Below, piece by piece: positions 1 through 59,733 of a DNA stretch of 64,000 bases. This stretch comes from Tetrapyrgos nigripes (lineage: Eukaryota > Basidiomycota > Agaricomycetes > Agaricales > Campanellaceae). The notes below the pieces were generated by a model. The model searched no databases. It was not told where the DNA came from and saw nothing but the letters and a program-made list of their open reading frames with translations. The DNA is taken from positions 434,001 through 498,000 of the forward strand of contig JAACJM010000044.1 in the NCBI GenBank assembly GCA_013368315.1, written 5' to 3'. Both the position numbers and the translations under genes were made by a program. Position 1 is the first letter of the stretch, and every line of letters starts with the position of its first letter.

Positions 1-3000
1 CCCCGTCTGCCCCGTCTGCCCCGTCTGCCCCGTCTGCCCCGTCTGCCCCGTCTGCCCCGTCTGCCTCGTCTGCCCCGTCTGCCCCGTCTGCCTCGTCTGC
101 CCCGTCTGCCCCGTCTGCCTCGTCTGCCCCGTCTGCCCCGTCTGCTCCGTCTGCCTCGTCTGCCTTGTCGGCTCTGTCTGCCTTGTCAGCTCTGTCTGCC
201 TCGTCTGCCTCGTCTGCTCTGTCTGCCTCGTCTGCCTCGTCGGCTCTGTCTGCCTCGTCTGCTTCGTCGGCTCTGTCTGCCTCGTCTGCCTCGTCGGCTC
301 TGTCTGCCTCGTCTGCTTCGTCTGCTTCGTCTGCCCCGTCTGCCTCGTCTGCCTCGTCTGCCCCGTCTGCCTCGTCTGCCTCGTCTGCCCCGTCTGCCTC
401 GTCTGCCTCGTCTGCCCCGTCTGCCTCGTCTGCCTCGTCTGCCTCGTCGGCTCCGTCTGCCTCGTCGGCTCTGTCTGCCTTGTCTGCCCCGTCTGCCTCG
501 TCTGCCTCGTCTGCCCCGTCTGCCCCGTCTGCCCCGTCTGCCTCGTCTGCTCTGTCTGCCTCGTCTGCCTCGTCGGCTCTGTCTGCCTCGTCTGCTTCGT
601 CGGCTCTGTCTGCCCCGTCTGCCCCGTCTGCCCTGTCTGCCTCGTCTGCCTCGTCTGCCCCGTCTGCCCCGTCTGCCTCGTCTGCCCCGTCTGCCCCGTC
701 TGCCTCGTCTGCCCCGTCTGCCCCGTCTGCCTCATCTGCCCCGTCTGCCCCGTCTGCCCCGTCTGCCCCGTCTGCCCCGTCTGCCCCGTCTGCCCCGTCT
801 GCCCCGTCTGCCTCGTCTGCCCCGTCTGCCCCGTCTGCCTCGTCTGCCCCGTCTGCCCCGTCTGCCTCGTCTGCCCCATCTGCCCCGTCTGCCTCGTCTG
901 CCCCGTCTGCCCCGTCTGCCTCGTCTGCCCCGTCTGCCCCGTCTGCCTCGTCTGCCCCGTCTGCCTCGTCTGCCTCGTCTGCCCCGTCTGCTCCGTCTGC
1001 CTCGTCTGCCCCGTCTGCCTCGTCTGCTCCGTCTGCCTCGTCTGCCTCGTCTGCTCCGTCTGCCTCGTCTGCCCGGTCTGCCTCGTCTGCCCCGTCTGCC
1101 CCTTCTGCCTCGTCTGCCTCGTCTGCCTCGTCTGCCCCGTCTGCCTCGTCTGCCCCGTCTGCCTCGTCTGCCTCGTCTGCCTTGTCGGCTCTGTCTGCCT
1201 TGTCAGCTCTGTCTGCCTCGTCTGCCTCGTCTGCTCTGTCTGCCTCGTCTGCTTCGTCTGCTCTGTCTGCCTCGTCTGCTTCGTCTGCTCTGTCTGCCTC
1301 GTCTGCTCTGTCTGCCTCGTCTGCTTCGTCTGCCTCATCTGCTCCGTCTGCTTCGTCTGCCTCATCTGCTCCGTCTCCCTTGTCTGCCCCATCTGCCCCG
1401 TCTGCCTCGTCTGCCCCGTCTGCCTCGTCTGCCCCGTCTGCCCCGTCTGCCTCGTCTGCCTCGTCTGCTCTGTCTGCCTCGTCTGCTTCGTCTGCTCTGT
1501 CTGCCTCGTCTGCTCTGTCTGCCTCGTCTGCTTCGTCTGCCTCATCTGCTCCGTCTCCCTTGTCTGCCCCATCTGCCCCGTCTGCCCCGTCTGCCTCGTC
1601 TGCCCCGTCTGCCCCGTCTGCCCCGTCTGCCCCGTCTGCCCCGTCTGCCTCGTCTGCTCCGTCTGCCCCGTCTGTCTCGTCTGCCTCGTCTGCTCCGTCT
1701 GCTCCGTCTGCCTTGTCTGCCCCGTCTGCTCCGTCTGCCTCGTCTGCCTTGTCTGCTCCGTCTGCTCCGTCTGCCTTGTCTGCCTCGTCTGCTCCGTCTG
1801 TCTCGTCTGCCTCGTCTGCTCCGTCTGCTCCGTCTGCCTCGTCTGCCTCGTCTGCCTCGTCTGCTCCGTCTGCTCCGTCTGCCTCGTCTGCTCCGTCTGC
1901 CTTGTCTGCCTCGTCTGCCTCGTCTGCCTCGTCTGCTTCGTCTGCCTCGTCTGCCTCGTCTGCCTCGTCTGCTCCGTCTGCCTCGTCTGCCCCGTCTGCC
2001 TCGTCTGCCTCGTCTGCCCCGTCTGCCCCGTCTGCCTCGTCTGCCCCGTCTGCCCCGTCTGCTCCGTCTGCCTCGTCTGCCCCGTCTGCCTCGTCTGCCC
2101 CGTCTGCCTCGTCTGCCCCGTCTGCCCCGTCTGCCTCGTCTGCCCCGTCTGCCTCGTCTGCCTCGTCTGCCCCGTCTGCTCCGTCTGCCTCGTCTGCCCC
2201 GTCTGCCTCGTCTGCTCCGTCTGCCTCGTCTGCCTCGTCTGCTCCGTCTGCCTCGTCTGCCTCGTCTGCTCCGTCTGCCTCGTCTGCCTCGTCTGCTCCG
2301 TCTGCCTCGTCTGCCTCGTCTGCTCCGTCTGCCTCGTCTGCCTCGTCTGCTCCGTCTGCCTCGTCTGCCCTGTCTGCCTCGTCTGCCCCGTCTGCCCCTT
2401 CTGCCTCGTCTGCCCCGTCTGCCTCGTCTGCCTCGTCTGCCCCGTCTGCCTCGTCTGCCCCGTCTGCCTCGTCTGCCTCGTCTGCCTTGTCGGCTCTGTC
2501 TGCCTTGTCAGCTCTGTCTGCCTCGTCTGCCTCGTCTGCTCTGTCTGCCTCGTCTGCTTCGTCTGCTCTGTCTGCCTCGTCTGCCTCGTCTGCTCTGTCT
2601 GCCTCGTCTGCTTCGTCTGCTCTGTCTGCCTCGTCTGCTCTGTCTGCCTCGTCTGCTCTGTCTGCCTCGTCTGCTTCGTCTGCCTCATCTGCTCCGTCTG
2701 CTTCGTCTGCCTCATCTGCTCCGTCTCCCTTGTCTGCCCCATCTGCCCCGTCTGCCTCGTCTGCCCCGTCTGCCTCGTCTGCCCCGTCTGCCTCGTCTGC
2801 CCCGTCTGCCTCGTCTGCCCCGTCTGCCCCGTCTGCCTCGTCTGCCTCGTCTGCTCTGTCTGCCTCGTCTGCTTCGTCTGCTCTGTCTGCCTCGTCTGCT
2901 CTGTCTGCCTCGTCTGCTTCGTCTGCCTCATCTGCTCCGTCTCCCTTGTCTGCCCCATCTGCCCCGTCTGCCCCGTCTGCCTCGTCTGCCCCGTCTGCCC

Positions 3001-4464
3001 CGTCTGCCCCGTCTGCCCCGTCTGCCCCGTCTGCCCCGTCTGCCCCGTCTGCCTCGTCTGCTCCGTCTGCCCCGTCTGTCTCGTCTGCCTCGTCTGCTCC
3101 GTCTGCTCCGTCTGCCTTGTCTGCCCCGTCTGCTCCGTCTGCCTCGTCTGCCTTGTCTGCTCCGTCTGCTCCGTCTGCCTTGTCTGCCTCGTCTGCTCCG
3201 TCTGTCTCGTCTGCCTCGTCTGCTCCGTCTGCTCCGTCTGCCTCGTCTGCCTCGTCTGCCTCGTCTGCTCCGTCTGCTCCGTCTGCCTCGTCTGCCTCGT
3301 CTGCCTCGTCTGCTCCGTCTGCCTCGTCTGCCTCGTCTGCCCCGTCTGCCTCGTCTGCCTCGTCTGCCTCGTCTGCTTCGTCTGCCTCGTCTGCCTCGTC
3401 TGCCCCGTCTGCCTCGTCTGCTCCGTCTGCCTCGTCTGCCTCGTCTGCCCCGTCTGCCCCGTCTGCCTCGTCTGCCCCGTCTGCCCCGTCTGCCTCGTCT
3501 GCCCCGTCTGCCCCGTCTGCTCCGTCTGCCTCGTCTGCCCCGTCTGCCTCGTCTGCTCCGTCTGCCTCGTCTGCCTCGTCTGCTCCGTCTGCCTCGTCTG
3601 CCTCGTCTGCTCCGTCTGCCTCGTCTGCCCTGTCTGCCTCGTCTGCCCCATCTGCCTCGTCTGCCTCGTCTGCCCCGTCTGCCTCGTCTGCCTCGTCTGC
3701 CCCGTCTGCCTCGTCTGCCCCGTCTGCCTCGTCTGCCCCGTCTGCCTCGTCTGCCCCGTCTGCCCCGTCTGCCTCATCTGCCTTGTCGGCTCTGTCTGCC
3801 TTGTCAGCTCTGTCTGCCTCGTCTGCCTCGTCTGCTCTGTCTGCCTCGTCTGCTTCGTCTGCTCTGTCTGCCTCGTCTGCTCTGTCTGCCTCGTCTGCTT
3901 CGTCTGCCTCATCTGCTCCGTCTGCTTCGTCTGCCTCATCTGCTCCGTCTCCCTTGTCTGCCCCATCTGCCCCGTCTGCCTCGTCTGCCCCGTCTGCCTC
4001 GTCTGCCCCGTCTGCCCCGTCTGCCTCGTCTGCCCCGTCTGCCCCGTCTGCCTCGTCTGCCTCGTCTGCTCTGTCTGCCTCGTCTGCTTCGTCTGCTCTG
4101 TCTGCCTCGTCTGCTTCGTCTGCCTCATCTGCTCCGTCTCCCTTGTCTGCCCCATCTGCCCCGTCTGCCCCGTCTGCCTCGTCTGCCCCGTCTGCCCCGT
4201 CTGCCCCGTCTGCCCCGTCTGCCCCGTCTGCCTCGTCTGCTCCGTCTGCCCCGTCTGTCTCGTCTGCCTCGTCTGCTCCGTCTGCTCCGTCTGCCTTGTC
4301 TGCCCCGTCTGCTCCGTCTGCCTCGTCTGCCTTGTCTGCTCCGTCTGCTCCGTCTGCCTTGTCTGCCTCGTCTGCTCTGTCTGTCTCGTCTGCCTCGTCT
4401 GCTCCGTCTGCTCCGTCTGCCTCGTCTGCCTCGTCTGCTCCGTCTGCCTCGTCTGCTCTGTCTG
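1..4464. repeat. 9-bp satellite, left arm of copy 1 (GTCTGCCTC type)
   Basis: About 490 uninterrupted copies of a 9-mer, mainly GTCTGCCTC, GTCTGCCCC, GTCTGCTCC, GTCTGCTCT and GTCTGCCTT. Phase is kept throughout. A distinctive block (TGCCTTGTCGGCTCTG then TGCCTTGTCAGCTCTG) recurs at 161, 1178, 2483 and 3779. The spacings are 1017, 1305 and 1296 bp, all exact multiples of 9, so there is a higher-order repeat of about 1.3 kb. A second marker (CTCCGTCTCCCTTG) occurs twice per higher-order unit. None of the six frames contains a stop, so the 1.7-kb-codon open frame here is not evidence of a gene. Confidence 0.95.
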
Positions 4465-4466
4465 CC

Positions 4467-5330
4467 CAGACGAGGCAGACGGAGCAGACGAGGCAGACGA
4501 GGCAGACGAGGCAGACGAGGCAGACGGGGCAGACGAGGCAGACGAGGCAGACGGGGCAGACGGGGCAGACGAAGCAGACGAAGCAGACGGGGCAGACGAA
4601 GCAGACGGGGCAGACGAGGCAGACGGGGCAGACGAGGCAGACGGAGCAGACGAGGCAGACGGAGCAGACGAGGCAGACGGAGCAGACGAGGCAGACGGAG
4701 CAGACGAGGCAGACGGAGCAGACGAGGCAGACGGAGCAGACGAGGCAGACGAAGCAGACGAAGCAGACGAGGCAGACGAGGCAGACGGGGCAGACGAGGC
4801 AGACGAAGCAGACGAAGCAGACGAGGCAGACGAGGCAGACGGGGCAGACGAGGCAGACGGGGCAGACGAGGCAGCCGGGGCAGACGAGGCAGACGAGGCA
4901 GACGAAGCAGACGAGGCAGACGGAGCAGACGAGGCAGACGACGCAGACGGAGCAGACGACGCAGACGACGCAGACGGAGCAGACGAGGCAGACGAGGCAG
5001 ACGGAGCAGACGACGCAGACGACGCAGACAGAGCAGACAGAGCAGACGAGGCAGACCACGCAGACAGAGCAGACGAGGCAGACGAGGCAGACGGAGCAGA
5101 CGAGGCAGACGAGGCAGACGGAGCAGACGAGGCAGACGAGGCAGACGGAGCAGACGAGGCAGACGGGGCAGACGGGGCAGACGAAGCAGACGAAGCAGAC
5201 GAGGCAGACGAAGCAGACGAGGCAGACGAAGCAGACGAGGCAGACGAGGCAGACGGGGCAGACAAGGCAGATGAGGCAGACAAGGCAGACAGGGCAGACA
5301 AGGCAGACAAGGCAGACAGGGCAGACATAA
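4467..5330. repeat. 9-bp satellite, right arm of copy 1 (opposite strand sense)
   Basis: The 9-mer continues as its reverse complement (GAGGCAGAC, GGGGCAGAC, GGAGCAGAC, GACGCAGAC). The switch point is GTCTG-CC-CAGAC at 4460-4471. The arm is about 0.86 kb against more than 4.4 kb on the left, so the palindrome is asymmetric in this copy. It decays slightly toward the terminal region (GACAAGGCAGAC, GATGAGGCAGAC). Confidence 0.93.
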
Positions 5331-5365
5331 CAGACTGAGCAGACGAAGATGACAAGGCAGACACA

Positions 5366-6613
5366 GTCCAGCCTGAGCTGTCTATTTATATTTAGTGACA
5401 TTTAATTGACCTGGTTGAATGAATTCATTGTATTACATCCTGTAAATTTTCAGTAAGCCCTTCTGTATTACTTCATTGACATGTACTGCAAATCCATCCA
5501 ACAAGTCTCTTGTAAGTCCATTGGATATACATGATGACTTACAAAATAGTCACTTTTCAGTAAAGTCATTGTAATGTCTTGTGACTTACAAGTGTCTTAC
5601 TGTGACCAGTCTGTCACACTGTATATTCTCCATTTAGCATGCAGGTTTTTTCCAGAGACTTACGAGATAGACTTTTAAAACCTGCATCTTGTAATTCCCT
5701 TGTAAAACCACAAGTCTTTCTAGGGTATTACTGTGACACAGCTGTCCCTCCGTAAATTCAGTGTAAATATGAGCAGTCTTACCCAAGACTTTCAAGTTCT
5801 ACCTTCTGGTAAGTCCTCTGTAAATTTTACTTGGTTTACAAATTGTCTTACTGTGACATTATCTCACACTGAAATACCCTGGTATTTCAGTTCTGTTTTA
5901 CAAGAAGACATACTGTGACAAAAAAGTCACCTTGTAATTCCACTGTATGCTCTTCAATGCTATACTGTGACAAAGCCTCACACTGAAAGTCCATGGTATG
6001 TCCTTGCAGCTTACAATGGTCTTTCAGAATAGTCCTCATTTTTTGTCTATTTTGTAATACACTTGTAAGTCAAGCCAACTTACATATTGATTGGTTCCCC
6101 ATAATACTCTTGTAATACTCCAGTAAGGCTGAGGATTTACCAGTGTTTGTAGCAAATCTTTCTTGTAATTCCTTCATAATACAGCTAGTCTTACAAGTGT
6201 ATTACTGTGACTTGATTGTCACTTTGTAAATTTCTTGCAGATTTTGCTTCCTTGTAAGTCCTTTGTAAATCTCTCTTGCCTTACTGTTTGTCATACTGTG
6301 ATTATCTGTCACACTGAAATACTCCAGTATTTCCTATATGTCTTACTACATGACATATTGTGACAAAAAGTCACCCTGAAATTCCTGTGTAATTCCACAG
6401 TATATCCACCAAGGGTATACAGTGACAGCAAGTCACACTGAAAGTCCATGGTATTTCTTTATGACTTACAATGGTCATACAAGGTTGTTCTAATTTTTTC
6501 TGTCTCTTGTAATACTAATGTATGACAAGGAGTCTTACATATTGATTGGCTTGGTGTAATACTCTTGTAAAACCTCAGTAAAGCAGAGGATTTACAAGTG
6601 TTTGCACCCAGTG
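5366..6613. repeat. Right terminal inverted repeat of foldback copy 1
   Basis: About 1.25 kb of AT-rich sequence starting CAGCCTGAGCTGTCTATTT and ending GTGTTTGCACCCAGTG. It is full of short motifs in both orientations (TTACAAG/CTTGTAA, TGTGACA/TGTCACA), typical of subterminal transposase-binding repeats. The inverted copy at 19390-20638 is the same length within a base or two, and parts occur at 11454-12247 and 18060-18874. The small open frames inside it are not conserved between copies and are not annotated. Confidence 0.85.
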
Positions 6614-8786: not shown

Positions 8787-8795
8787 TATAAAAAG
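8787..8795 (+). promoter_or_regulatory. Probable TATA box of the LysM gene
   Basis: TATAAAAAG lies 113 bp upstream of the chosen LysM start codon, in a pyrimidine-rich leader (8815-8905). That position suits a fungal core promoter. Inferred from position and consensus only. Confidence 0.5.
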
Positions 8796-8907
8796 GAGCA
8801 AGTTCTCAGCCAATTTCTTCAGTGGCATCATTGACGTCCTCCCCTCTCCAGCTCCTCAAATTTGACACTTACTTACTCCCCACTACATTCCTCAACTTGA
8901 AGATATC

Positions 8908-9549: not shown

Positions 9550-10153
9550 AGGGCGAAAGGGAAAGTGCCTCGAGGGGGAATTTAGTAGGATACGGTCTTA
9601 GGTATAAGTGCTATGCTTCGTATTGGAGGCTACGTACACAGGGAATATCATGATGGACGACGTCTTCAATTCTTGAAGTGAAAATATCTCTCAGACAAGA
9701 CTGCCCGATTCATCGGACTCTAGATAGGTCCGAAACATCTTCGATTTAACAAGTTCCATTGTGCCCTCTCAAGGAATCATCCCACCGTCTCAAAATGGGT
9801 TCCGCAGAGGATACCGTACGAATACAGTGGGTCAAAAAATTGTCCACATGTTTCGCATTTTTGGAAAGATTGCCAATTTAAGCAATACTGAGTAGAGATA
9901 TTGAAATGTGGTCAGTGATGGGCAGAACGCCCTTGATAAGAGCTACAATAATCTGTTTTATTTGTCCTATTTGGCTCAAAACTCATGGAGATATGATTGA
10001 TTTAAAATGGTATGTCATTTGGACAATTTTTTGAGTTGCCACTTCAAAATCAGTATTGTAACTATGTGATGTCTCATAGATGACATCATAAGTGGAGTTG
10101 TACAATGATGCAATGGCTACATCATAATGATATCATAGCTGCCAGCTGGACCA

Positions 10154-10161
10154 TATATAAG
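10154..10161 (+). promoter_or_regulatory. TATA box of Tc1 transposase, copy 1
   Basis: TATATAAG lies downstream of an upstream in-frame ATG (10105) and 34 bp before the ATG at 10195. Transcription from it would start after the first ATG, so the 10195 start is preferred. Confidence 0.6.
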
Positions 10162-10194
10162 GGCATCCAGTTGTTCTATAGCCCTCATCAAATC

Positions 10195-11211
10195 ATGAGA
10201 CCCATCACATCCACCCAGAAAGACAATATCCTCTCTCTTCTCCAAACTTCTGCTTCATCCAGGGAAATCTCTGCTAAAACTGGGGTATCCAAGTCAAAGA
10301 TTGCTTCTCTGGCCAAAGAGATGTATCCTGACAAGGAGAACCATCAAGGAGGGCGTCCTAGAAAGCTGTCTACCACTGATGAACGTGCTGCTATCCAACA
10401 AATCAACACTGGCAAAGCTGAAAATGCTACAGAAGTGGCCAGAAACATCAATCCCCTCCTTGACCAACCTGTCTCCACCCAAACCATTCGAAATTCCCTT
10501 CTCAGGCATGATGTGGACACATCTAAAACGAAGAAGAAGCCCAAACTCACTGCAGCTCACAGGAAGGCTCGTTTAAACTTTGCACAGAAGTACAGAAACT
10601 GGACTGTGGATGACTGGAAAAGGGTTATTTGGTCAGATGAGACTAAAATCAATCGATATGGGTCAGATGGACAGCAGTATGTGTGGGGGAGGAAGGGTGA
10701 ATCCTTGGGAGAGAGAAATGTGGTGGAAACAGTCAAATTTGGAGGAGGAAATATCATGGTGTGGGGATGTATGGGGTGGGAAGGAGTTGGAAACATGGCA
10801 GAGGTGGAGGGCAGGATGAATGCAGAGCAGTATGTGGACATTTTGGAGAACAACCTTCTGGAGAGCATGGATATTTTGGGTGTTGATCCAGAGGTGGCCA
10901 TTTTTCAGCAAGACAATGATCCTAAACACAAGTCAAAACTGGCCACCAAGTGGTTTGAAGACAACAACATCCATTGCATGAGCTGGCCTGCTCAATCTCC
11001 TGACCTGAACCCCATTGAACACCTCTGGACAACCCTCAAACACAAGCTCAATGGATATGACACAGCACCCTCTGGAGTTTGGGAAATATGGGACAGAGCA
11101 GCTGAAAAGTGGGATGAAATCACAGAAGAAGATTGTCAGAAATTGATCAGGAGCATGCCTAGAAGGATTGAGGCTGTGTTGAAGGCCAAAGGAGGGCATA
11201 CCAAGTACTGA
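10195..11211 (+). CDS. Tc1/mariner transposase (DD34E), copy 1
   Basis: Catalyses cut-and-paste transposition into TA sites. An ATG-initiated frame opens at 10105 (368 codons), but the internal ATG at 10195 gives 338 residues, close to the usual Tc1-family length, and follows the TATA box. In 368-residue numbering there is an N-terminal helix-turn-helix region (about 33-75), a GRPRK AT-hook-like motif (83-87), and a second helix-turn-helix (about 90-135). The catalytic triad is D178 (WSDETK), D270 (QQDNDPKH) and E305 (SPDLNPIEHLW), with 34 residues between the last two. The frame is uninterrupted and its protein is identical to that of the second copy at 34492-35508, so it is plausibly active. 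No intron is visible. Confidence 0.95.
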   Translation: MRPITSTQKDNILSLLQTSASSREISAKTGVSKSKIASLAKEMYPDKENHQGGRPRKLSTTDERAAIQQINTGKAENATEVARNINPLLDQPVSTQTIRNSLLRHDVDTSKTKKKPKLTAAHRKARLNFAQKYRNWTVDDWKRVIWSDETKINRYGSDGQQYVWGRKGESLGERNVVETVKFGGGNIMVWGCMGWEGVGNMAEVEGRMNAEQYVDILENNLLESMDILGVDPEVAIFQQDNDPKHKSKLATKWFEDNNIHCMSWPAQSPDLNPIEHLWTTLKHKLNGYDTAPSGVWEIWDRAAEKWDEITEEDCQKLIRSMPRRIEAVLKAKGGHTKY

Positions 11212-11453
11212 GCTAGCACTTTCTGTATTTTCACTTGCATGTCAAAAAATTGTCCAAATGACATACCATTTTAAATCAGTCATATCTCCATGAGTTTTAA
11301 GCCAAATAAGACAAAACAGACAGAATATTGTAGCGTATATCAAGGGCTTTCTGCCCATCACTGACCACATTTTAATATCTCTACTCAGTATTGCTTAAAT
11401 TGGCAATCCTTCCAAAAATGCGAAACATGTGGACAATTTTTTGACCCACTGTA

Positions 11454-12260
11454 TGAAGGAATTACAAGAAACATTTGCTACAAAGACGTGTAAATCCTCA
11501 GCCTTACTGGAGTATTACAAGAGTATTATGGGGAACCAATCAATATGTAAGTTGGCTTGACTTACAAGTGTATTACAAAATAGACAAAAAATGAGGACTA
11601 TTCTGAAAGACCATTGTAAGCTGCAAGGACATACCATAGACTTTCAGTGTGAGGCTTTGTCACAGTATAGCATTGAAGAGCATAAAGTGGAATTACAAGG
11701 TGACTTTTTTGTCACAGTATGTCTTCTTGTAAAACAGAACTGAAATACCAGGGTATTACAGTGTGAGATAATGTCACAGTAAGACAATTTGTAAACCAAG
11801 TAAAATTTACAGAGGACTTACCAGAAGGTAGAACTTGAAAGTCTTGGGTAAGACTGCTCATATTTACACTGAATTTATGGAGGGGCATCTGTATCACAGT
11901 AATACCCTAGAAAGACTTGTGATTTTACAAGGGAATTACAAGATGCAGGTTTTAGAAGTCTATCTCGTAAGTCTCTGGAAAAAACCTGCATGCTAAATGG
12001 AGAATATACAGTGTGACAGACTGGTCACAGTAAGACACTTGTAATACAATGACTTTACTGAAAAGTGACGATTTTGTAAGTCATCATATATATCCAATGG
12101 ACTTACAAGAGACTTGTTGGATGGATTTGCAGTGCATGTCAATTAAGTAATACAGAAGGGCTTACTGAAAATTTACAGGATGTAATACAATGAATTCATT
12201 CAACCAGGTTAATTAAATTTTACTGAATATAAATAGACAGCTCAGGCTGGACAGGAAAAG
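11454..12260. repeat. Left terminal inverted repeat of foldback copy 2 (outer part lost)
   Basis: Matches the inner part of the 19390-20638 terminal repeat, starting from the TATGAAGGAATTACAAG point, with small differences. The outermost ~436 bp, including the CACTGGG end, are missing to the left of Tc1. Confidence 0.8.
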
Positions 12261-12274
12261 GAGAGACTACTGTG

Positions 12275-13904
12275 TCTGCATTGTCATCTTCGTCTGCCTG
12301 GTCTGCCTGGTCTGCCTGGTCTGCCTGGTCTGCCTGGTCTGCCTGGTCTGCCCGGTCTGCCTGGTCTGCCTGGTCTGCCCGGTCTGCCTGGTCTGCCTGG
12401 TCTGCCTGGTCTGCCTGGTCTGCCTGGTCTGCCTGGTCTGCCTGGTCTGCCTGGTCTGCCTGGTCTGCCCCGTCTGCCTGGTCTGCTCTGTCTGCCTGGT
12501 CTGCCTGGTCTGCCTGGTCTGCCTGGTCTGCCTGGTCTGCCTGGTCTGCCTGGTCTGCCTGGTCTGCCTGGTCTGCGTGGTCTGCTCTGTCTGCCTGGTC
12601 TGCGTGGTCTGCTCTGTCTGCCTGGTCTGCGTGGTCTGCCTGGTCTGCCTGGTCTGCTCTGTCTGCGTGGTCTGCCTGGTCTGCTCCGTCTGCGTGGTCT
12701 GCGTGGTCTGCTCCGTCTGCGTGATCTGCGTGGTGTGCTCTGTCTGCGTGGTCTGCCTGGTCTGCTCTGTCTGCCTGGTCTGCCTGGTCTGCCCCGTCTG
12801 CCTGGTCTGCCTGGTCTGCCTGGTCTGCCTGGTCTGCCTGGTCTGCCTGGTCTGCTCTGTCTGCCTGGTCTGCCTGGTCTGCCTGGTCTGCCTGGTCTGC
12901 CTGGTCTGCCTGGTCTGCCTGGTCTGCTCTGTCTGCGTGGTCTGCGTGGTCTGCTCTGTCTGCGTGGTCTGCTCTGTCTGCGTGGTCTGCCTGGTCTGCT
13001 CCGTCTGCCTGGTCTGCCTGGTCTGCCCCGTCTGCCTGGTCTGCCTGGTCTGCCTGGTCTGCTCTCTCTGCCTGGTCTGCGTGGTCTGCCTGGTCTGCGT
13101 GGTCTGCTCCGTCTGCGTGGTCTGCCTGGTCTGCTCCGTCTGCGTGGTCTGCGTGGTCTGCTCCGTCTGCTTGGTCTGCCTGGTCTGCCTGGTCTGCCTG
13201 GTCTGCCTGGTCTGCCTGGTCTGCCTGGTCTGCCTGGTCTGCCTGGTCTGCTCTGTCTGCCTGGTCTGCCTGGTCTGCCTGGTCTGCCTGGTCTGCTCTG
13301 TCTGCCTGGTCTGCGTGGTCTGGCTGGTCTGGCTGGTCTGCTCCGTCTGCGTGGTCTGCCTGGTCTGCTCCATCTGCGTGGTCTGCGTGGTCTGCTCCGT
13401 CTGCTTGGTCTGCCTGGTCTGCTCTGTCTGCGTGGTCCGCGTGGTCTGCTCTGTCTGCGTGGTCTGCCTGGTCTGCTCCGTCTGCCTGGTCTGCCTGGTC
13501 TGCCCCGTCTGCCTGGTCTGCCTGGTCTGCCCTGTCTGCCTTGTCTGCCTTGTCTGCCTTGTCTGCCTTGTCTGCCTTGTCTGCCTTGTCTGCCTTGTCT
13601 GCCTTGTCTGCCTTGTCTGCCTTGTCTGCCTTGTCTGCCTTGTCTGCCTTGTCTGCTTCATCTGCTTCATCTGCCTTGTCTGCCTTGTCTGCCTCATCTG
13701 CTTCGTCTGCCTTGTCTGCTCCATCTGCTCTGTCTGCCTCGTCTGCTTCGTCTGCCTCGTCTGCCTCGTCTGCTTCGTCTGCTTCGTCTGCTTCCTCTGC
13801 CTCCTCTGCCTCATCTGCCTCATCTGCTTCCTCTGCCTGGTCTGCCTTGTCTGCTTCCTCTGCCTTATCTTCTCCGTCTGCCTCGTCTGCTTTGTCTTTG
13901 TCTG
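12275..13904. repeat. 9-bp satellite, left arm of foldback copy 2 (GTCTGCCTG type)
   Basis: Mostly GTCTGCCTG with GTCTGCGTG, GTCTGCTCT and GTCTGCTCC variants. A homogeneous run of about thirteen GTCTGCCTT lies at 13530-13650, then a diverged run before the switch. The predominant unit differs from copies 1 and 3 (GTCTGCCTC), so each element has homogenised its own satellite. Open in all frames and not coding. Confidence 0.93.
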
Positions 13905-13905
13905 C

Positions 13906-14341
13906 CAGACGAGGCAGACGAGGCAGACGAAGCAGACGAGGCAGACGAGGCAGATGAAGCAGACGAGGCAGACGAGGCAGACGAGGCAGACGAGGCAGAC
14001 GAAGCAGACGAGGCAGACGAAGCAGACGAGGCAGACGAAGCAGACGAGGCAGACGAAGCAGACGAGGCAGACGGAGCAGATGGAGCAGACAACGCAGACG
14101 AAGCAGATGAGGCAGATGAGGCAGACGAGGCAGACGAAGATGAAGCAGACGAGGCAGACGGAGAAGATAAGGCAGAGGAAGCAGACAAGGCAGACCAGGC
14201 AGACGAAGCAGATGAGGCAGATGAGGCAGACCAGGCAGACGAAGCAGACGAAGCAGACCAGGCAGACCAGGCAGACAAAGCAGACAAGACAGACCGAGCA
14301 GACAAGGCAGATGATGCAGACGAGGCAGATGGAGCAGACGG
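13906..14341. repeat. 9-bp satellite, right arm of foldback copy 2, first segment
   Basis: GAGGCAGAC-type units in the opposite sense, after the switch GTCTG-C-CAGAC at 13900-13910. The arm is interrupted at 14341 by the 2.6-kb element and resumes at 16921. The interval 14334-14341 reads GCAGACGG, repeated at 16921-16928. Confidence 0.9.
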
Positions 14342-16920
14342 CACCAGTAGTTGTAACTGCCATGCATAGTATACAGGCAGTACTCACACAACACTATGCG
14401 TAGTCAACAGTCCTTTCTCTGTGTATACTTTGGGTGAGCATATGATGCATTGTATGGCTATTTTCATACTATGCATTGTGTGCACACTATTCTACTATAC
14501 CACGCATGGTATACCTTAAGTAAATTTGGCAGGTTTTTCCCACAGCTGGTAATTTGATGTGGCGGTAGGCAGGGCCTTAGGGGCCAGTAGGGCAGGTTTA
14601 ATCAATGTCTAGTGAGATATCCTCAATTTACTCTGAAAAAAGTGAAAAATTTGGGATGGCCATGGACACTACATGTTATAGCATCTAATATAGTTATAGA
14701 TATGCTTACTAGGGTATTCTGTGTCCCTGAATCAGAATATCCACTTGGATAAGCTCTATATTCTGTGGTTCTGGTGATATGGAATACTTACTCCTAAATA
14801 TAGGTACCTGTGGCATCCACAAATATGCAACTTATAAATTTGTTTGAGAGGGTGGATAAATGTTCATTAATACCCTCAATCATAATATAAAGTCATGTTT
14901 TTGATATCTTCAAAATACAAGACTCTATTTTCAATTTATTCCCCAAAAATTGCCACAAAAGTGAAAAAGAGGAATGGCCATGCACAGGGCATGGTGTGGC
15001 ATCCAATATGATCATGGATATGCCTACTAAGATAAATTTGGTTGTGGAATCCTAATATCCACTTGGATTGGCTCTATAGGCTATGGGTACTCTGCTATTC
15101 AAGACTTACCCCCGAACGTGGGTACCTGTGGCACCTGCAAATATGTACTTTATAAAATAGGTTGAGTGGGCTTAAAAGTGTTGATTGATGTCCCAAACAG
15201 TAATATGAAATCATATCATCTATATCCCTAAGTTCTAAGACTCTATTCTCAATTTATTCCCCAGACAGCAAAGATAGCCCTAATTTTCACCTTCATTGAC
15301 ACATATACCTATCTTTTGGCTTTGAGACTGGCATTCTGACTACCCTCCTATCATTGTAAGCCATAATCCTTGTGTTACTGGCAGTTTGGATGTTCTCACT
15401 GAAAGACATGTTCAGATATAGCCTTAAGTGCTATAAGTATCATTATGTGCAACTCAATTTGACTTTAACCTGGTGCATATACCTAGAACATCTGCTAGAT
15501 ATTTTGGATGGCTGATCATCTTTTAAGTGGTACTAAAAGATGAAATACATAGTATGAGTGCCTCCAGTAACCTCTGGAATGAGATATGCCCATGTATATG
15601 GTTCCAAAAGGTACTATTTTCGCTTTTTGAGTAATAAATTGGGAATAGAGTCGTCGATCTTGGGGATATGGAACATATGACCTCATATTCTTGTTTGGGG
15701 CTTTGATAAACAGTTATCCACCTATCTCCACAGTTTTTTAAGATACATATTTACAGGTGCCACAGGTACCCATGCTTGGGGGTAAGTCTTCAATAGCAGA
15801 GTAGCCACAGCTTATAGAGCCAATCTAAGTGGATATTTGGATTCAAGGACCCGGACTACTCTAATAGACATATACATAGCTGTATTGGATGCCATACCAT
15901 GCCCTCTCCATGGGCATCTCACTTTTTTCGCTTTTGTGGCAATTTTTGGGAAATAAATTGAAAATAGAGTCTTGTATCTTCAAGATATGAAGAATATGAC
16001 TTTATATTCTGATTGAAAGTATTAATGAACATTTATCCACCCGCTCAAACAAATTTATAAGTTGCATATTTGTGGGTGCCACAGGTACCTATATTTAGGA
16101 GTAAGTATTCCATATCACCAGAACCACAGAATATAGAGCTTATCCAAGTGGATATTCTGATTCAGGGACACAGAATACCCTAGTAAGCATATCTATAACT
16201 ATATTAGATGCTATAACATGTAGTGTCCATGGCCATCCCAAATTTTCACTTTTTTGAGAGTAAATTGAGGATACCTCACAAGACATTGATTATATAATAA
16301 AATAAAAGTTATTCCCAAGTTTATAGAATCCAAAAGCAGTATCCTACCAATTTGCATAATGATCAGAGCTGATTGGATGCAATGGCCAGTACCCATCCTG
16401 CTATTTGCTGTATTTTGGACAGTATTTTGGCCATATCTCTATAGCCACTGCAGGTATTGCGAATCTGATTGGATATTTGAATTCAGTGACCCAAAATACA
16501 TCCTCTTATATACTTATATCACTTTTCATTACCAGCTCCAGGAATTTATTTTGCATTTTCTGAGCCAGCCACAGCTAGTACCCCTATTCCATTTGCAGAT
16601 TCAGGGCCCTATCGACGGCCTGCACCTCCCATCAAATTTTGAGGCGTGAGAAAAACCCGCCCTACTGCCCCCTAAGGGGCACAGTGGCTTACTACGCATG
16701 GTATGCAATACTACGCATGGTATAGGGCTGGCACAGTGGCTTACTATGCGTGATATGCAAAAATAAAATGCGATATACTATGCATGGTATGGGGTGGAAC
16801 AGTGATTCACTATGCATAGTATCATACCATAATATAGGTACAGATAAGCCTCTACAAACTACGCATTGTGCCCAGCAGAGTACTATCAGTATACTATGTG
16901 TAGCAGTTACAGCTACAGCT
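14342..16920. mobile_element. Non-autonomous relative of the 15-kb KDZ element
   Basis: Left end CACCAGTAGTTGTAACTGC, right end (inverse) AGCTGTAGCTGTAACTGC, each followed by ACACATAGTATA- or ATGCATAGTATA-type sequence. These are the same two distinct ends as the element at 30262-45429, in opposite orientation. Flanked by GCAGACGG on both sides (8 bp), though this word is common in the satellite so the duplication is not proof. Subterminal blocks (14343-14520, 16685-16920) carry ACTATGCATAGT-like palindromes. The interior is a large non-coding inverted repeat. No coding capacity seen. Confidence 0.7.
14621..16275. repeat. Non-coding imperfect palindrome inside the 2.6-kb element
   Basis: Left arm about 14621-15262 and right arm about 15630-16275 are reverse complements at perhaps 80-90 percent by eye, with a ~370-bp centre. 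Each arm contains two diverged units (for example GGATGGCCATGG at 14654 and GAATGGCCATGC at about 14972), so the arm was duplicated before or with the inversion. Flanking sequence at 14528-14600 and 16600-16690 is also inversely related (GGCAGGTTTTTCCCAC, CAGTAGGGC). This suggests a second element nested in the first. No reading frame supported. Confidence 0.7.
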
Positions 16921-18013
16921 GCAGACGGAGCAGACAAGGCAGACGAAGCAGACGGAGCAGACAAAGCAGACGAGGCAGATGGAGCAGACGAGGCAGATGA
17001 GGCAGACGGAGGAGACGAGGCAGACGGAGCAGACGAGGCAGACGAGGCAGACAGAGCAGAGGAAGCAAACGAGGCAGATGAGGCAGATGAGGCAGACGGA
17101 GCAGACAAGGCAGACAAGGCAGACGGAGCAGACGAGGCAGACAGAGCAGACAGAGCAGACGAGGCAGACGAGGCAGACGGAGCAGACAAGACAGACAAGG
17201 CAGACAGAGCAGACAAGGCAGACGGAGCAGACAAGGCAGACAAGGCAGACGGAGCAGACGAGGCAGACGGAGCAGACGAGGCAGACGGAGCAGACGAGGC
17301 AGACGGAGCAGACGAGGCAGACAGAGCAGACGAGGCAGACGGAGCAGACGAGGCAGACGGAGCAGCTGGAGCAGACGAGGCAGACGAGGCAGACGGAGCA
17401 GACAGAGCAGACGAGGCAGAGGGAGCAGACGAGGCAGACGGAGCAGACGAGGCAGACGGAGCAGACAAGGCAGACGGAGCAGACAAGACAGACAAGGCAG
17501 ACGAAGCAGACAAGGCAGATGAGGCACAGACGAGGCAGACGGAGCAGACAAGGCAGATGAGGCAGACGGAGCAGACAAGGCAGACAGAGCAGACAGAGCA
17601 GACGAGGCAGACGAGGCAGACGGAGCAGACGAGCCAGGCGAGGCAGATGGAGCAGGCGAGGCAGATGGAGCAGATGAGGCAGACGGAGCAGACAAGGCAG
17701 ACAAGGCAGACAGAGCAGACAAGGCAGACAAGGCAGACGGAGCAGACAAAGCAGATGAGGCAGACAGAGCAGACAGAGCAGACGAGGCAGACAGAGCAGA
17801 CAAGGCAGACAAGGCAGACAAGGCAGACAGAGCAGACAAGGCAGACGGAGCAGACAAGGCAGATGGAGCAGACAAGGCAGACGATGCAGACAACGCAGAC
17901 CGAGCAGACAACGCAGACGGGGCAGACAAGGCAGACGGAGCCGACGAGGCAGACCGAGCAGACAGAGCAGACAAGGCAGACAAGGCAGACGGAGCAGACG
18001 AGGCAGATGTACC
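16921..18013. repeat. 9-bp satellite, right arm of foldback copy 2, second segment
   Basis: GGAGCAGAC, GAGGCAGAC, AAGGCAGAC and AGAGCAGAC units in the same sense as 13906-14341. One phase slip lies near 17525 (GAGGCACAGACG). Non-coding. Confidence 0.9.
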
Positions 18014-18874
18014 ACACTGAGCAGATGAAGATGACAACGCAGACACAGTAGTCTCTCTTTTCCTGTCCAGCCTGAGCTGTCTATTTATATTCAGTAAAAT
18101 TTAATTAACCTGGTTGAATGAATCCATCAGACAGAGCAGACAGAGCAGACAAGGCAGACGGAGCAGACAAGGCAGACAAGGCAGACAAGGCAGACAGAGC
18201 TGACAAGGCAGATGGAGCAGACGAGGCAGATGGAGCAGACAAGGCAGACAAGGCAGACGGAGCAGACGAGGCAGACGGAGCCTTTCAGAATAGTCCTCAT
18301 TTTTTGTCTATTTTGTAATACACTTGTAAGTCAAGCCAACTTACATATTGATTGGTTCCCCATAATACTCTTGTAATACTCCAGTAAGGCTGAGGATTTA
18401 CCCGTCTTTGTAGCAAATGTTTCTTGTAATTCCTTTATAATACAGCTAGTCTTACAAGTGTATTACTGTGACTTGATTGTCACTTTGTAAATTTCCTGCA
18501 GATTTTGCTTCCTTGTAAGTCCTTTGTAAATCTCTCTTGCCTTACTGTTTGTCATACTGTGATTATCTGTTACACTGAAATACTCCAGTATTTCCTATGT
18601 GTCTTACTACATGACATATTGTGACAAAAAGTCACTCTGAAATTCCTGTGTAATTCCACAGTATATCCACCAAAGGTATACAGTGACAGCAAGTCACACT
18701 GAAAGTCCATGGTATTTCTTTGTGACTTACAATGGTCATACAAGGTTGTTCTAATTTTTTCTGTCTCTTGTAATACTAATGTATGACAAGGAGTCTTACA
18801 TATTGATTGGCTTGGTGTAATACTCTTGTAAAACCTCAGTAAAGCAGAGGATTTACAAGTGTTTGCACCCAGTG
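18014..18874. repeat. Right terminal region of foldback copy 2, rearranged
   Basis: Begins like copy 1 (GAAGATGACAACGCAGACAC, then the GAGCTGTCTATTTATATT stretch) up to GGTTGAATGAATCC. A 160-bp satellite patch then replaces about 600 bp of the terminal repeat, which resumes at TTTCAGAATAGTCCTC and runs to CACCCAGTG at 18866-18874. Confidence 0.8.
18125..18282. repeat. Satellite patch inserted in the terminal repeat
   Basis: About 17 units of GCAGACAGA/GCAGACAAG type, in the same sense as the adjacent satellite arm. Its two junctions fall inside unique terminal-repeat sequence. The segment present in copy 1 at roughly 5424-6023 is absent here. Confidence 0.85.
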
Positions 18875-19389
18875 ATGTATCAAACTCATCTCGCATTCAT
18901 CAGGCATCAATTAGAGTTATTCATTACCACAAACAAATACCTATCCCCAACACAACAACTGGAACTCCAAAAACGGCGTGCAACACTTCTGAAAAGAATT
19001 ACCACCTTCCAGACACATCAACGACTCCTCATGCCTGGCTTGGCTGACGTTTTATCTCCTGACGACATGCAGAAAGTCAACGACCCTGATATCTTACACC
19101 CGGAAAAGATCCGTCTCTTCCTGCCTTCACAGTGTGGAACTGTTTCTGCAAGAAATTGAGCCTGCATCAGAGATCTACCAAATATCGAGGCACAGTTACA
19201 GATTAAGGAGGCACACGACGCTCTAGAGGGACTTCGTGATGGTTTATGTGCAAGAACTATGTCTGCTCGGTTCAAATTGCGCAATATTACAGGCCAGGTT
19301 GGGAGCGGTCGAGCAAGTGGAGTATTATGACAAATTGACATTCGAATCCACTCCCGAAAAATCTGCTACCGCTTAGCGCGTATAGATAT
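18875..19389 (+). pseudogene. KDZ transposase C-terminal fragment
   Basis: One reading frame runs across the interval with TGA stops near 19157 and 19330. It encodes segments typical of the region downstream of the KDZ catalytic core: a charged helix (TQQLELQKRRATLLKRI), EKIRLFLPS, CIRDLPNIEAQLQIKEAHDAL, then LRDGLCARTMSARFKLRN and TGQV. The corresponding part of the KDZ gene on the minus strand (about 32900-33230) has VKLYLPSQLPS and LPELERKIREAQL in the same order. The fragment is bounded on both sides by the ends of two foldback elements. No start, no catalytic core. A dead remnant. Confidence 0.65.
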
Positions 19390-20638
19390 CACTGGGTGCA
19401 AACACTTGTAAATCCTCTGCTTTACTGAGGTTTTACAAGAGTATTACACCAAGCCAATCAATATGTAAGACTCCTTGTCATAAATTAGTATTACAAGAGA
19501 CAGAAAAAATTAGAACAACCTTGTTTGACCATTGTAAGTCACAAAGAAATACCATGGACTTTCAGTGTGACTTGCTGTCACTGTATACCCTTGGTGGATA
19601 TACTGTGGAATTACACAGGAATTTCAGGGTGACTTTTTGTCACAATATGTCATGTAGTAAGACACATAGGAAATACTGGAGTATTTCAGTGTGACAGATA
19701 ATCACAGTATGACAAACAGTAAGGCAAGAGAGATTTACAAGGGCCTTACAAGGAAGCAAAATCTGCAGGAAATTTACAAAGTGACAATCAAGTCACAGTA
19801 ATACACTTGTAAGACTAGCTGTATTATGAAGGAATTACAAGAAAGATTTGCTACAAACACTGGTAAATCCTCAGCCTTACTGGAGTATTACAAGAGTATT
19901 ATGAGGAACCAATCAATATGTAAGTTGGCTTGACTTATAAGTGTATTACAAAATAGACAAAAAATGAGGACTATTCTGAAAGACCATTGTAAGCTGCAAG
20001 GACATACCATGGACTTTCAGTGTGAGGCTTTGTCACAGTATAGCATTGAAGAGCATACAGTGGAATTACAAGGTGACTTTTTTGTCACAGTATGTCTTCT
20101 TGTAAAACAGAACTGAAATACCAGGGTATTTCAGTGTGAGATAATGTCACAGTAAGACAATTTGTAAACCAAGTAAAATTTACAGAGGACTTACCAGAAG
20201 GTAGAACTTGAAAGTCTTGGGTAAGACTGCTCATATTTACACTGAAATTACAGAGGGACAGCTGTGTCACAGTAATACCCTAGAAAGACTTGTGGTTTTA
20301 CAAGGGAATTACAAGATGCAGGTTTTAAAAGTCTATCTCGTAAGTCTCTGGAAAAAACCTGCATGCTAAGTGGAGAATATACAGTGTGACAGACTGGTCA
20401 CAGTAAGACACTTGTAAGTCACAAGACATTACAATGACTTTACTGAAAAGTGACTATTTTGTAAGTCATCATGTATATCCAATGGACTTACAAGAGACTT
20501 GTTGGATGGATTTGCAGTGCATGTCAATTAAGTAATACAGAAGGGCTTACTGAAAATTTAGAGGATGTAATACAATGAATTCATTCAACCAGGTCAATTA
20601 AATGTTACTAAATATAAATAGACAGCTCAGGCTGGACT
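19390..20638. repeat. Left terminal inverted repeat of foldback copy 3
   Basis: Full-length reverse complement of 5366-6613, with only scattered differences seen. It begins CACTGGGTGC directly after host-type sequence CGTATAGATAT. Contains the same TTACAAG/TGTGACA subterminal repeats. Confidence 0.88.
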
Positions 20639-20639
20639 G

Positions 20640-22652
20640 TGTCTGCCTTGTCATCTTCGTCTGCTCAGTCTGTTAGGTCTGCCCCGTCTGCCTCGTCTGC
20701 CTCGTCTGCTTTGTCTGCTCCGTCTGCTTTGTCTGCTCCGTCTGCCTCGTCTGCCCCGTCTGCCTCGTCTGCTTCGTCTGCCTTGTCTGCCTTGTCTGCC
20801 TTGTCTGCTTTGTCTGCCTCGTCTGCTCTGTCTGCCTTGTCTGCTTCGTCTGCCTTGTCTGCCTTGTCTGCTTCGTCTGCCTTGTCTGCCTTGTCTGCCT
20901 TGTCTGCTCTGTCTGCCTTGTCTGCCTTGTCTGCCTTGTCTGCCTTGTCTGCCTTGTCTGCTCCGTCTGCCTCGTCTGCCTCGTCTGCCTCGTCTGCCTT
21001 GTCTGCCTTGTCTGCTCCGTCTGCCTCGTCTGCCTCGTCTGCCTCGTCTGCTTTGTCTGCTCCGTCTGCCTCGTCTGCTTCGTCTGCCTCGTCTGCTTCG
21101 TCTGCTTCGTCTGCTTCGTCTGCCTCGTCTGCCTGGTATGCCCCGTCTGCCTTGGCTGCCCTGTTGGCCTCGTCTGCCTCGTCTGCTCCGTCTGCCTCAT
21201 CTGCCGCGTCTGCCTCGTCTGCTCCGTCTGCTTCGTCTGCCTCGTCTGCCTCGTCTGCTCCGTCTGCTTCGTCTGCCTGGTCTGCCTGGTCTGCTCCGTC
21301 TGCCTGGTCTGCTTCGTCTGCCTTGTCTGCCTTGTCTGCCTTGTCTGCCTTGTCTGCTCCGTCTGCCCCGTCTGCTCTGTCTGCCCTGTCTGCCTTGTCT
21401 GCTCTGTCTGCCTCGTCTGCCCCATCTGCCTCGTCTGCCTCATCTGCTTTGTCTGCTCCGTCTGCTTTGTCTGCTCCGTCTGCCTCGTCTGCCCCGTCTG
21501 CCTCGTCTGCCTCGTCTGCCTCGTCTGCCTTGTTTGCCTCGTCTGCCTTGGCTGCCCTGTTGGCCTCGTCTGCCCCGTCTGCCTCGTCTGCTCCATCTGC
21601 CTCGTCTGCCTCGTCTGCTCCGTCTGCCTCGTCTGCTTCGTCTGCCTCGTCTGCTTCGTCTGCCTCGTCTGCTTCGTCTGCTTCGTCTGCTTCGTCTGCC
21701 TTGTCTGCCTGGTATGCCCCGTCTGCCTTGGCTGCCCTGTTGGCCTCGTCTGCCTCGTCTGCTCCGTCTGCCTCGTCTGCCTCGTCTGCTCCGTCTGCTT
21801 CGTCTGCCTGGTCTGCCTGGTCTGCTCCGTCTGCTTCGTCTGCCTGGTCTGCCTCGTCTGCTCCGTCTGCCTGGTCTGCTTCGTCTGCCTTGTCTACCTC
21901 GTCTGCTTCGTCTGCCTTGTCTACCTCGTCTGCTTCGTCTGCCTTGTCTGCCTTGTCTGCCTTGTCTGCTCCGTCTGCCCCGTCTGCTCTGTCTGCCCTG
22001 TCTGCCTTGTCTGCTCTGTCTGCCTCGTCTGCCCCATCTGCCTCGTCTGCCTCGTCTGCTTTGTCTGCTCCGTCTGCTTTGTCTGCTCCGTCTGCCTCGT
22101 CTGCCCCGTCTGCCTCGTCTGCCTCGTCTGCCTTGTTTGCCTCGTCTGCCTTGGCTGCCCTGTTGGCCTCGTCTGCCTCGTCTGCCTCGTCTGCCTCGTC
22201 TGCCTCGTCTGCTCCGTCTGCCTCGTCTGCCTCGTCTGCTCTGTCTGCCTCGTCTGCCTCGTCTGCCTCGTCTGCCTCGTCTGCCTCGTCTGCCTCGTCT
22301 GCCTCGTCTGCCTCGTCTGCTTCGTCTGCCTCGTCTGCCTCGTCTGCCTCGTCTGCCTCGTCTGCCTCATCTGCTCTGTCTGCTTCGTCTGCCTCGTCTG
22401 CTCCCTCTGCTCCGTCTGCCTCGTCTGCTCCGTCTGCTCCGTCTGCCCCGTCTGCTCTGTCTGCCTCGTCTGCTCCGTCTGCCTCGTCTGCCTCGTCAGC
22501 TCCGTCTGCTCCCTCTGCCTCTTCTGCCTTGTCTGCCTTGTCTGCCTTGTCTGCCCCATCTGCCTTGTCTGCCTTGTCTGCCCCGTCTGCCTTGTCTGCT
22601 CTGTCTGCCTCGTCTGCCCCATCTGCCTCGTCTGCTTTGTCTGCTCCGTCTG
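20640..22652. repeat. 9-bp satellite, left arm of foldback copy 3
   Basis: GTCTGCCTC, GTCTGCCTT, GTCTGCTCC and GTCTGCTTC units with recurring markers (CTTGGCTGCCCTGTTGGCC at about 21150, 21547, 21727 and 22150), indicating higher-order duplication. Open in all frames, non-coding. Confidence 0.93.
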
Positions 22653-22654
22653 CT

Positions 22655-23277
22655 TTAGCAGATGAGGCAGACGGAGCAGACAAAGCACACGGAGCAGACA
22701 AAGCAGATGAGGCAGACGAGGCAGACGGGACAGACAAGGCAGACAGAGCAGACAAGGCAGACAAGGCAGACGGGGCAGACAAGGCAGACGGGGCAGACGA
22801 GCAGACGAGGCAGACAAGGCAGACAGAGCAGACAAGGCAGATGAGGCAGACGGAGCAGACAAGGCAGATGGGGCAGACAAGGCAGACGGAGCAGACGAGG
22901 CAGACGAGGCAGACGAAGCAGACGGAGCAGATGGAGCAGACAAGGCAGACGAGGCAGACCGAGCAGACAAGGCAGACCGAGCAGACGGGGCAGACAAGGC
23001 AGACAAGGCAGACGGAGCAGACGGGGCAGATGAGGCAGACGAGGCAGACGACGAGGCAGATGGAGCAGATGAGGCAGACGGGGCAGACAAGGCAGACAAG
23101 GCAGACAAGGCAGACAGAGCAGACGAGGCAGACGAGGCAGATGGAGCAGACGAAGCAGACGAGGCAGACAAGGCAGACGGAGCAGACAAGGCAGACGAGG
23201 CAGACGGGGCAGACAAGGCAGACAAGGCAGACAAGGCAGACGGAGCAGACAAGGCAGACGAAGCAGACGAGGCAGAT
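22655..23277. repeat. 9-bp satellite, right arm of foldback copy 3
   Basis: GAGGCAGAC/AAGGCAGAC units in the opposite sense, about 0.6 kb, with two phase breaks (near 22800 and 23045). Ends without a terminal repeat. Confidence 0.92.
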
Positions 23278-59454: not shown

Positions 59455-59733
59455 CACTGGGTGCAAGCATTTGTAATTCCTTGGATATACAGAGGAATTA
59501 CACAAGACTTACACTGGTACACTCAATATGTAAGTCCACTTGACTTACAGAAGTATTACCAAGGACCACTGTGAGACTTCATGCCTTACAACGGTCATAT
59601 ATAATTGTTCTATTTTTCTTGGTCTCTGGTAATACTTCAGTAAGTCAAGTGGACTTACATATTGAGTGTACCAGTGTAAGTCTTATGTAATTCCTCTGTA
59701 TATCCAAGGAATTACAAGTGTTTGCACCCAGTG
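59455..59733. mobile_element. Short hairpin MITE with CACTGGGTGCAA termini
   Basis: 279 bp. Left CACTGGGTGCAAGCATTTG and right (inverted) CACTGGGTGCAAACACTTG, then matching arms of about 130 bp including TTGGATATACAGAGGAATTA and CAATATGTAAGTCCACTTGA. The termini and arm layout are those of the foldback elements without satellite. Flanks CTG and TTG could be a decayed 3-bp duplication. Confidence 0.85.

Follow-up and report, generated by a model that had tools for sequence, protein, structure and literature searches.

What kind of mobile element builds its inverted arms from a satellite with a 9-bp unit, and which transposase could move it? This question is raised by a stretch of 64,000 nucleotides from the fungus Tetrapyrgos nigripes (C44:434001-498000, hereafter the window; assembly of 98.46 Mb in 587 contigs), where three large satellite-bearing elements, numbered 1 to 3, are found between positions 1 and 23277. 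The window contains no N bases and gave no match in an Rfam search. A first-pass annotation had described the elements as Foldback-like, with CMC-type termini, in a fungal host, and the three parts of this description were supported, 3-bp target duplications being added to the termini. The family very probably consists of non-autonomous Foldback elements of the EnSpm/CACTA (CMC) superfamily, moved in trans by a CMC-type transposase, an assignment that is based mainly on the ends and on the target duplication.

The terminal inverted repeat (TIR) of element 3 (19390-20638) was used as query for a genome search in which 40 of 556 candidates were scored, and full or near-full matches of 98-100% identity were obtained in all 40. 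The exact 30-bp end starting with CACTGGGTGC is present 133 times in the genome (66 on the plus strand and 67 on the minus strand; pattern control 0). Pairing was analysed among 100 listed ends, 66 of which are taken by 33 convergent pairs within 20 kb, versus only 2 divergent and 2 tandem neighbours. The convergent pairs span 768-18,365 bp, with a median of 5,447 bp, and are bounded by 5'-CAC...GTG-3' termini as in EnSpm/CACTA elements. According to the first-pass annotation, its reading would fall if terminal repeats never occurred as inverted pairs in the genome, and such pairs are what the search returned. In a list of 100 out of 441 places, counting by eye gave 23 pairs of 269-279 bp that are miniature inverted-repeat transposable elements (MITEs) with the same ends. 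The satellite occupies very roughly 0.2 Mb of the genome, a figure scaled from the window; the reversed-pattern control of this search was uninformative, since it matches the satellite too.

Target duplications were read in 20 of the inverted pairs visible in the end and TIR searches. A perfect duplication of 3 bp, with no longer exact match, was found in 17 of them, whereas about 0.3 would be expected by chance (1 in 64 for each pair), and it is present in elements of 11, 13 and 15 kb too. This length is compatible with the EnSpm/CACTA superfamily (3 bp, or 2-5 bp in the wider clade). The comparison of occupied with empty sites that had been proposed was carried out with the joined flanks of four elements (C44, C144, C21 and C238; 40 of 81 candidates scored) and revealed three paralogous empty sites for two of them. 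The contig of the 13.0-kb C144 element also carries its empty site, at a distance of about 51 kb (C144:25237-25637) and with 98% identity across the entire 400-bp joined query. For the 3.5-kb C21 element, the joint is spanned at C21:502133-502416 (97%, 284 of 400 bp) and at C74:143480-143754 (95%, 272 of 400 bp). A single TTA is found at the joint of the C21 empty sites, and AGC at the C144 site versus AGT twice around the C144 insertion. Taken together, the 3-bp duplications and the empty sites indicate that the inverted pairs were inserted as units: the foldback elements are mobile.

In each of the 30 TIR copies examined (40 scored), the satellite runs inward on the TCTGC strand, the same as the TIR. 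This fixed polarity indicates that TIR and satellite behave as a single module that is present twice. The irregular leader GTGTCTGCCTTGTCATC is exact in 24 of the 30 copies (counted by eye). One TIR carries 14 TTACAAG and 11 TGTGAC motifs, versus mononucleotide-shuffle means of 0.29 (maximum 3) and 0.47 (maximum 4), and repeated short subterminal motifs of this kind, here predicted binding sites, are a further property of EnSpm/CACTA elements. The TIR had been described as about 1.25 kb long and unique; the size was correct (1,249 bp), whereas the uniqueness is incomplete, positions 465-808 matching the first 360 bp of the same TIR at 73.5%. Among ten satellite regions examined, nine have both arms, one strand change and 0-2 wrong-strand units per arm, and in the tenth (C120) other sequence is found where the left arm was expected. 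In the four complete elements that were read through (C21, C350, C49 and C6), the interior is satellite alone. Such long inverted arms with tandem repeats are the structure by which foldback elements are recognised.

In the window, CACTGGGTGC was found at 6604-6613 (minus), 18865-18874 (minus), 19390-19399 (plus) and at both ends of a MITE, that is five occurrences versus a shuffle mean of 0.15 and a largest value of 1, and the 9-bp satellite arrays were located by a tandem-repeat search. The parts of the family in the window are the following.

1..4466, plus (GTCTGCNNN strand): element 1, part of the left satellite arm; the element starts outside the window
4467..5364, minus: element 1, right satellite arm
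5365..6613, minus: element 1, right 1,249-bp TIR; target duplication TTA at both element ends
11452..12252, plus: element 2, left TIR remnant (TIR positions 436-1248), adjoining a Tc1-like element
12253..13903, plus: element 2, left satellite arm, GTCTGCCTG-rich
13904..14345, minus: element 2, right satellite arm, inner piece
about 14346..16920, no strand assigned: unrelated element inserted in the right arm of element 2, with ends ACCAGTAGTTGTAAC... and ...GTTACAGCTACAGCTG
16921..18047, minus: element 2, right satellite arm, outer piece
18065..18127, minus: element 2, inner end of the right TIR (TIR positions 1186-1248)
18128..18281, minus: element 2, 154 bp of satellite replacing TIR positions about 594-1185
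18282..18874, minus: element 2, outer part of the right TIR (TIR positions 1-593)
19390..20638, plus: element 3, left 1,249-bp TIR, the reference copy; dense TTACAAG/TGTGAC, one TATAAATA near the inner end
20639..22657, plus: element 3, left satellite arm
22658..23277, minus: element 3, right satellite arm; the satellite stops at about 23277
59455..59733, no strand assigned: palindromic MITE of 279 bp with CACTGGGTGC ends, 73-74% identical to the TIR over 105-152 bp

Element 1 is the only complete element of the window. It starts at C44:429412, which is 4.6 kb to the left of the window, and measures 11.2 kb, with about 8.7 kb between its TIRs (C44:432161-434000, 1.84 kb of the interior, was left unread). 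Its right TIR is 98.7% identical to the reference copy across 1249 bp, and in its left arm a block of units is present three times as a higher-order repeat. The left TIR of element 2 is devoid of positions 1-435 beside the Tc1-like element 9823-11453, and no right TIR was found in element 3 after its right satellite arm. One window element is whole and elements 2 and 3 are broken, so the earlier statement that three copies share one plan could not be maintained. The single strand change at the centre of the satellite was seen in all three, with zero wrong-strand units in either arm. The arms had been described as of kilobase size; many arms elsewhere are shorter than 1 kb (e.g. 0.42-0.72 kb in C21, C350 and C6). 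The flanks of the MITE are CTG and TTG, without perfect duplication. Open frames in the satellite were also considered as a sign of coding and rejected, because several frames are open on both strands of elements 2 and 3.

The shortest arms measure about 0.4 kb and the longest, part of which was left unread, nearly 8 kb; each arm has its own mix of units. The preference for a particular unit, which had been attributed to entire elements, is valid for one arm of element 2: 78 GTCTGCCTG-type units were counted in the left arm, whereas one piece of the right arm has 4 and the variants listed for the other piece include none. The order of the units in left and right arms was compared from the TIR inward. 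In C21 the score was 34 versus a shuffled maximum of 12; C46b was marginal (20 versus a null maximum of 18), elements 1 and 2 merely equalled their null maxima, and clear left-right homology was observed only in C21 among the nine regions with both arms. Eight of nine left arms are matched better by the right arm of another element than by that of their own. These data are not in agreement with the homogenisation inside each element that had been proposed, and the two arms of element 2 differ in their preferred unit. Homogenisation and turnover of units occur per arm and not per element. Mean pairwise divergence among the 30 TIRs is 1.06%, with a star-like tree in which the same few copies (L002, L003 and L004) are nearest to many TIRs. 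This pattern is as after a recent burst, and the family has probably been amplified recently. The 59-bp inner end of the TIR (TIR 1191-1249) was also found, at 100% identity, inside satellite arms (L007 2961-3019 and 3204-3262; L029 1141-1199), the extra copies being located in C29 and C302, which suggests internal duplication or exchange. With satellite growth caught inside mobile elements, the family lends itself to measuring satellite turnover arm by arm, on TIRs that are about 1% diverged.

As regards the transposase, a profile search of the genome gave 117 matches to Transposase_21. In C79, a family TIR (98.6% over 1,249 bp) is followed by about 0.23 kb of satellite and then by a 572-aa frame with this domain (C79:36420-38135, Pfam E 2.6e-11). 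Further upstream lies another, separate frame of 391 aa, in which the satellite, translated as Ser-Ala-X repeats, passes into a conserved N-terminal region, and there is no in-frame ATG ahead of this region in the satellite-derived frame. The sister copy L068, to which L067, L069 and L071 are nearly identical, is 66% identical to C79, and its transposase is identical in 371/371 residues to T. nigripes D9758_019111. In our reading, the place of the C79 satellite is taken in L068 by a Met exon, which contains a Cys/His cluster, and by an intron. C86 is a transposase relative of 84%. In place of the autonomous copy with the same ends and a CMC transposase that the annotation had recommended looking for, a one-ended copy was seen, with a Transposase_21 frame behind TIR and satellite. 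Judged from its sequence, C79 is a damaged or chimeric copy that looks decayed; it suggests an EnSpm-type gene for the family without proving the link. The window itself contains, at 45422-46210 (minus), a fragment with a weak match to Transposase_21, whose E of 0.00085 does not reach the curated cut-off.

Several results weigh against the EnSpm/CACTA assignment or against the transposase link. No target duplication was found in three of the 20 pairs (C188a, C18 and C31), and the joined flanks of C44 and C238 gave no spanning match among the candidates scored. Clear left-right arm homology is confined to C21, as reported above. The partner TIR of the same element is nearest in C21 and nearest or second in C44, and partners are not mutually nearest in C238 (ranks 22 and 16 among 29) and C144 (ranks 18 and 8); these ranks are noisy because the tree is star-like, and with the inner-end copies inside arms they indicate that ends or arms may be exchanged. 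No two-ended autonomous copy was found. The family end or TIR was not seen at the 12 other best Transposase_21 loci (about 3.4 kb each, their own ends lying further out), nor was the TIR at five sister-copy loci (4.1 kb each, with the same limit). In C79 itself, no left TIR is present within 12.6 kb, the satellite-gene junction is found nowhere else in the genome at <=3 mismatches, and the second Cys of the C(2)C motif is replaced by Tyr (CTVY), versus Cys in six other aligned proteins (two of them identical there); the sister copy has CTVC plus the conserved HYHC segment, C(2)C and H(3-4)H being motifs of EnSpm/CACTA transposases. Owing to the missing left TIR and the unique junction, C79 may be a chance fusion, in which a foldback arm was joined to the broken CMC gene of another family, and the different first exon and intron of L068 are compatible with such an event. 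Against it, C79 keeps the satellite leader beside the TIR, and its satellite is in frame with the conserved N-terminal region, as expected of an original 5' end. We regard the fusion as a serious possibility, on the less probable side of even. It would affect C79 alone and does not conflict with the EnSpm/CACTA assignment, for which the ends and duplications are the main evidence.

Three other origins were considered for the family as a whole. Foldbacks of the Drosophila FB/Mutator type, with CACTG ends acquired by chance, would share the architecture, in which long composite inverted repeats contain tandem repeats, and most foldbacks are placed in Mutator in passages of PMC4079207. However, the 8-10-bp duplication of this type was not found: the longest exact one is 3 bp in 17 of the 20 pairs, with none in the other three. 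In addition, the only gene seen beside the module is Transposase_21, genes of Mutator-like elements not having been searched for, and this origin is very unlikely. Mobilisation by KDZ (Kyakuja-Dileera-Zisupton) or Plavaka transposases, to which we give almost no credence, might be suggested by the great abundance of KDZ domains in the genome (173 matches at E <= 0.001, 150 of 345 candidates scored), one of which lies inside the C31 pair (C31:33759-34139). However, the C31 interior is flanked by satellite stretches, has ends like those of a second inserted family and looks like a nested insertion, and CACTGGGTGC was absent from 20 KDZ loci (about 3.5-3.8 kb each, where ends further out would be missed). 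An 8-bp duplication was not seen in the 20 pairs, whereas passages of PMC12730594 give 8 bp for Zisupton and TGT..ACA or CATCA..TGATG ends for Plavaka, and the KDZ link was set aside. Finally, the inverted satellite arrays could have been produced by assembly error or chromosomal inversion rather than transposition, given that kilobase palindromic satellites are hard to assemble and that arm lengths vary. The 3-bp duplications, the empty sites, the 33 pairs at separate places, the centre sequences, which differ between most elements, and the gap-free window make this highly improbable.

Among known systems, Drosophila Foldback (FB) also has inverted arms of short tandem units, with a 9-bp duplication and different termini. 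Galileo duplicates about 7 bp of its target, a length that was not found in the pairs read here. TIRs of EnSpm elements usually measure tens of bp, whereas here the TIR is 1.25 kb long and is followed by mirror-symmetric satellite arms. The likeness to fungal EnSpm (CACTA) elements of the CMC/CMCT clade lies in the 5'-CAC..GTG-3' ends, the 3-bp duplications and the dense subterminal motifs, as well as in the Transposase_21 gene beside the same TIR in the one-ended copy C79; passages of the 2025 paper PMC12730594 class as EnSpm those families of rust fungi that have CAC..GTG ends and duplicate 3 bp of target. According to passages of PMC4079207, Tetris of Drosophila virilis, which shares its ends with the MITE DAIBAM much as the present family does with its own MITEs, is a non-autonomous foldback with tandem repeats in its TIRs that feeds satellite growth; it differs by its 8-10-bp duplications, its assignment to Mutator by the authors, its units of about 220 bp and its three structurally complete copies, whereas 33 inverted pairs were counted here in a list of 100 ends. 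Galileo, as presented in passages of PMC3688188, has foldback-like long TIRs with repeated transposase-binding sites and a THAP transposase of the P superfamily, so the foldback plan is also found outside Mutator. Tm1 of root-knot nematodes shares composite TIRs of variable length, repeated motifs of about 14 bp, and MITE-like plus transposase-bearing forms, and differs by mostly 9-bp duplications and a Phantom/Mutator-like transposase (passages of PMC3169594). No CMC-based foldback was found in the open-access literature, subscription papers lying outside the search; passages of PMC1636069 and PMC9757828 have no bearing on this architecture. The family would add an EnSpm/CACTA case to the foldbacks, most of which are assigned to Mutator, Galileo (P) being an exception. 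Its ends of CMC type, together with the empty sites and the clean duplications of 3 bp, support the proposal that the plan arises independently across lineages via transposase loss and TIR growth (passages of PMC4079207).

Under the EnSpm/CACTA assignment, a complete element would be composed of two inverted copies of one end module, a 1.25-kb TIR followed inward by the 9-bp satellite array. The family is probably mobilised in trans: a CMC transposase supplied from elsewhere would act at the 5'-CAC...GTG-3' ends, with the TTACAAG and TGTGAC repeats as putative binding sites, and the unit would be inserted at a target duplicated over 3 bp. The mirror plan may have come from inverse copying of one end module in replacement of the transposase gene, either by template switch in gap repair or by fold-back copying, and each arm could then be lengthened or shortened by slippage or unequal exchange.

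A further reading is that the TIR is a portable promoter and that the foldback arms are transcribed into long double-stranded RNA, silencing the parent transposon or diverting silencing from it; we consider it doubtful. Two of its parts are equally speculative: it is unlikely that the transposon's own 5' transcript leader was turned into a multi-copy hairpin, and there is at best a slim chance that the 9-bp (three-codon) satellite, as suggested by C79, was at first the leader of a transposase gene. The maize Mu killer locus would have here a spontaneous, repeatedly copied analogue. A TATAAATA TATA box lies within 70 bp of the TIR inner end, just before the satellite, in 30/30 copies; the copies being 99% alike, this constancy is expected, and the presence of the box is by itself weak, since shuffled TIRs contain 0.20 boxes on average and up to 2. 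The RNA of 941 nt of C21 satellite is predicted to form a single long hairpin (-804 kcal/mol, z -53 versus 20 shuffles), as expected of any inverted repeat. Two matches to Dicer_dimer were found in the genome. Inverted satellite arrays could promote rearrangement as well as double-stranded RNA.

Other repeats were recorded beside the family. At least three foldbacks carry, within their satellite arms, members of another element family, whose ends resemble ACC(A/C)GTAGTTGTA... and which is found in both orientations with respect to the satellite (14346-16920 of the window; from about 3859 in L012 and about 5291 in L063). This family may prefer the foldback satellite as target; sequence similar to it also lies beside the satellite of C120 (L013). 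Tandem arrays of ATGCATAGT type at 30386-31271 and 44523-45335, which the insertion in element 2 also carries at its ends, are perhaps subterminal repeats of another transposon family. The Tc1/mariner-like copies at 9823-11453, which marks the broken left end of element 2, and 34120-35750 carry DDE_3 and HTH_Tnp_Tc3_2 with equal scores and lengths. An ankyrin-repeat gene at 53571-55176 contains about 16 similar repeats of 99 bp (33 codons) with 90% matches, a possible sign of recent homogenisation.

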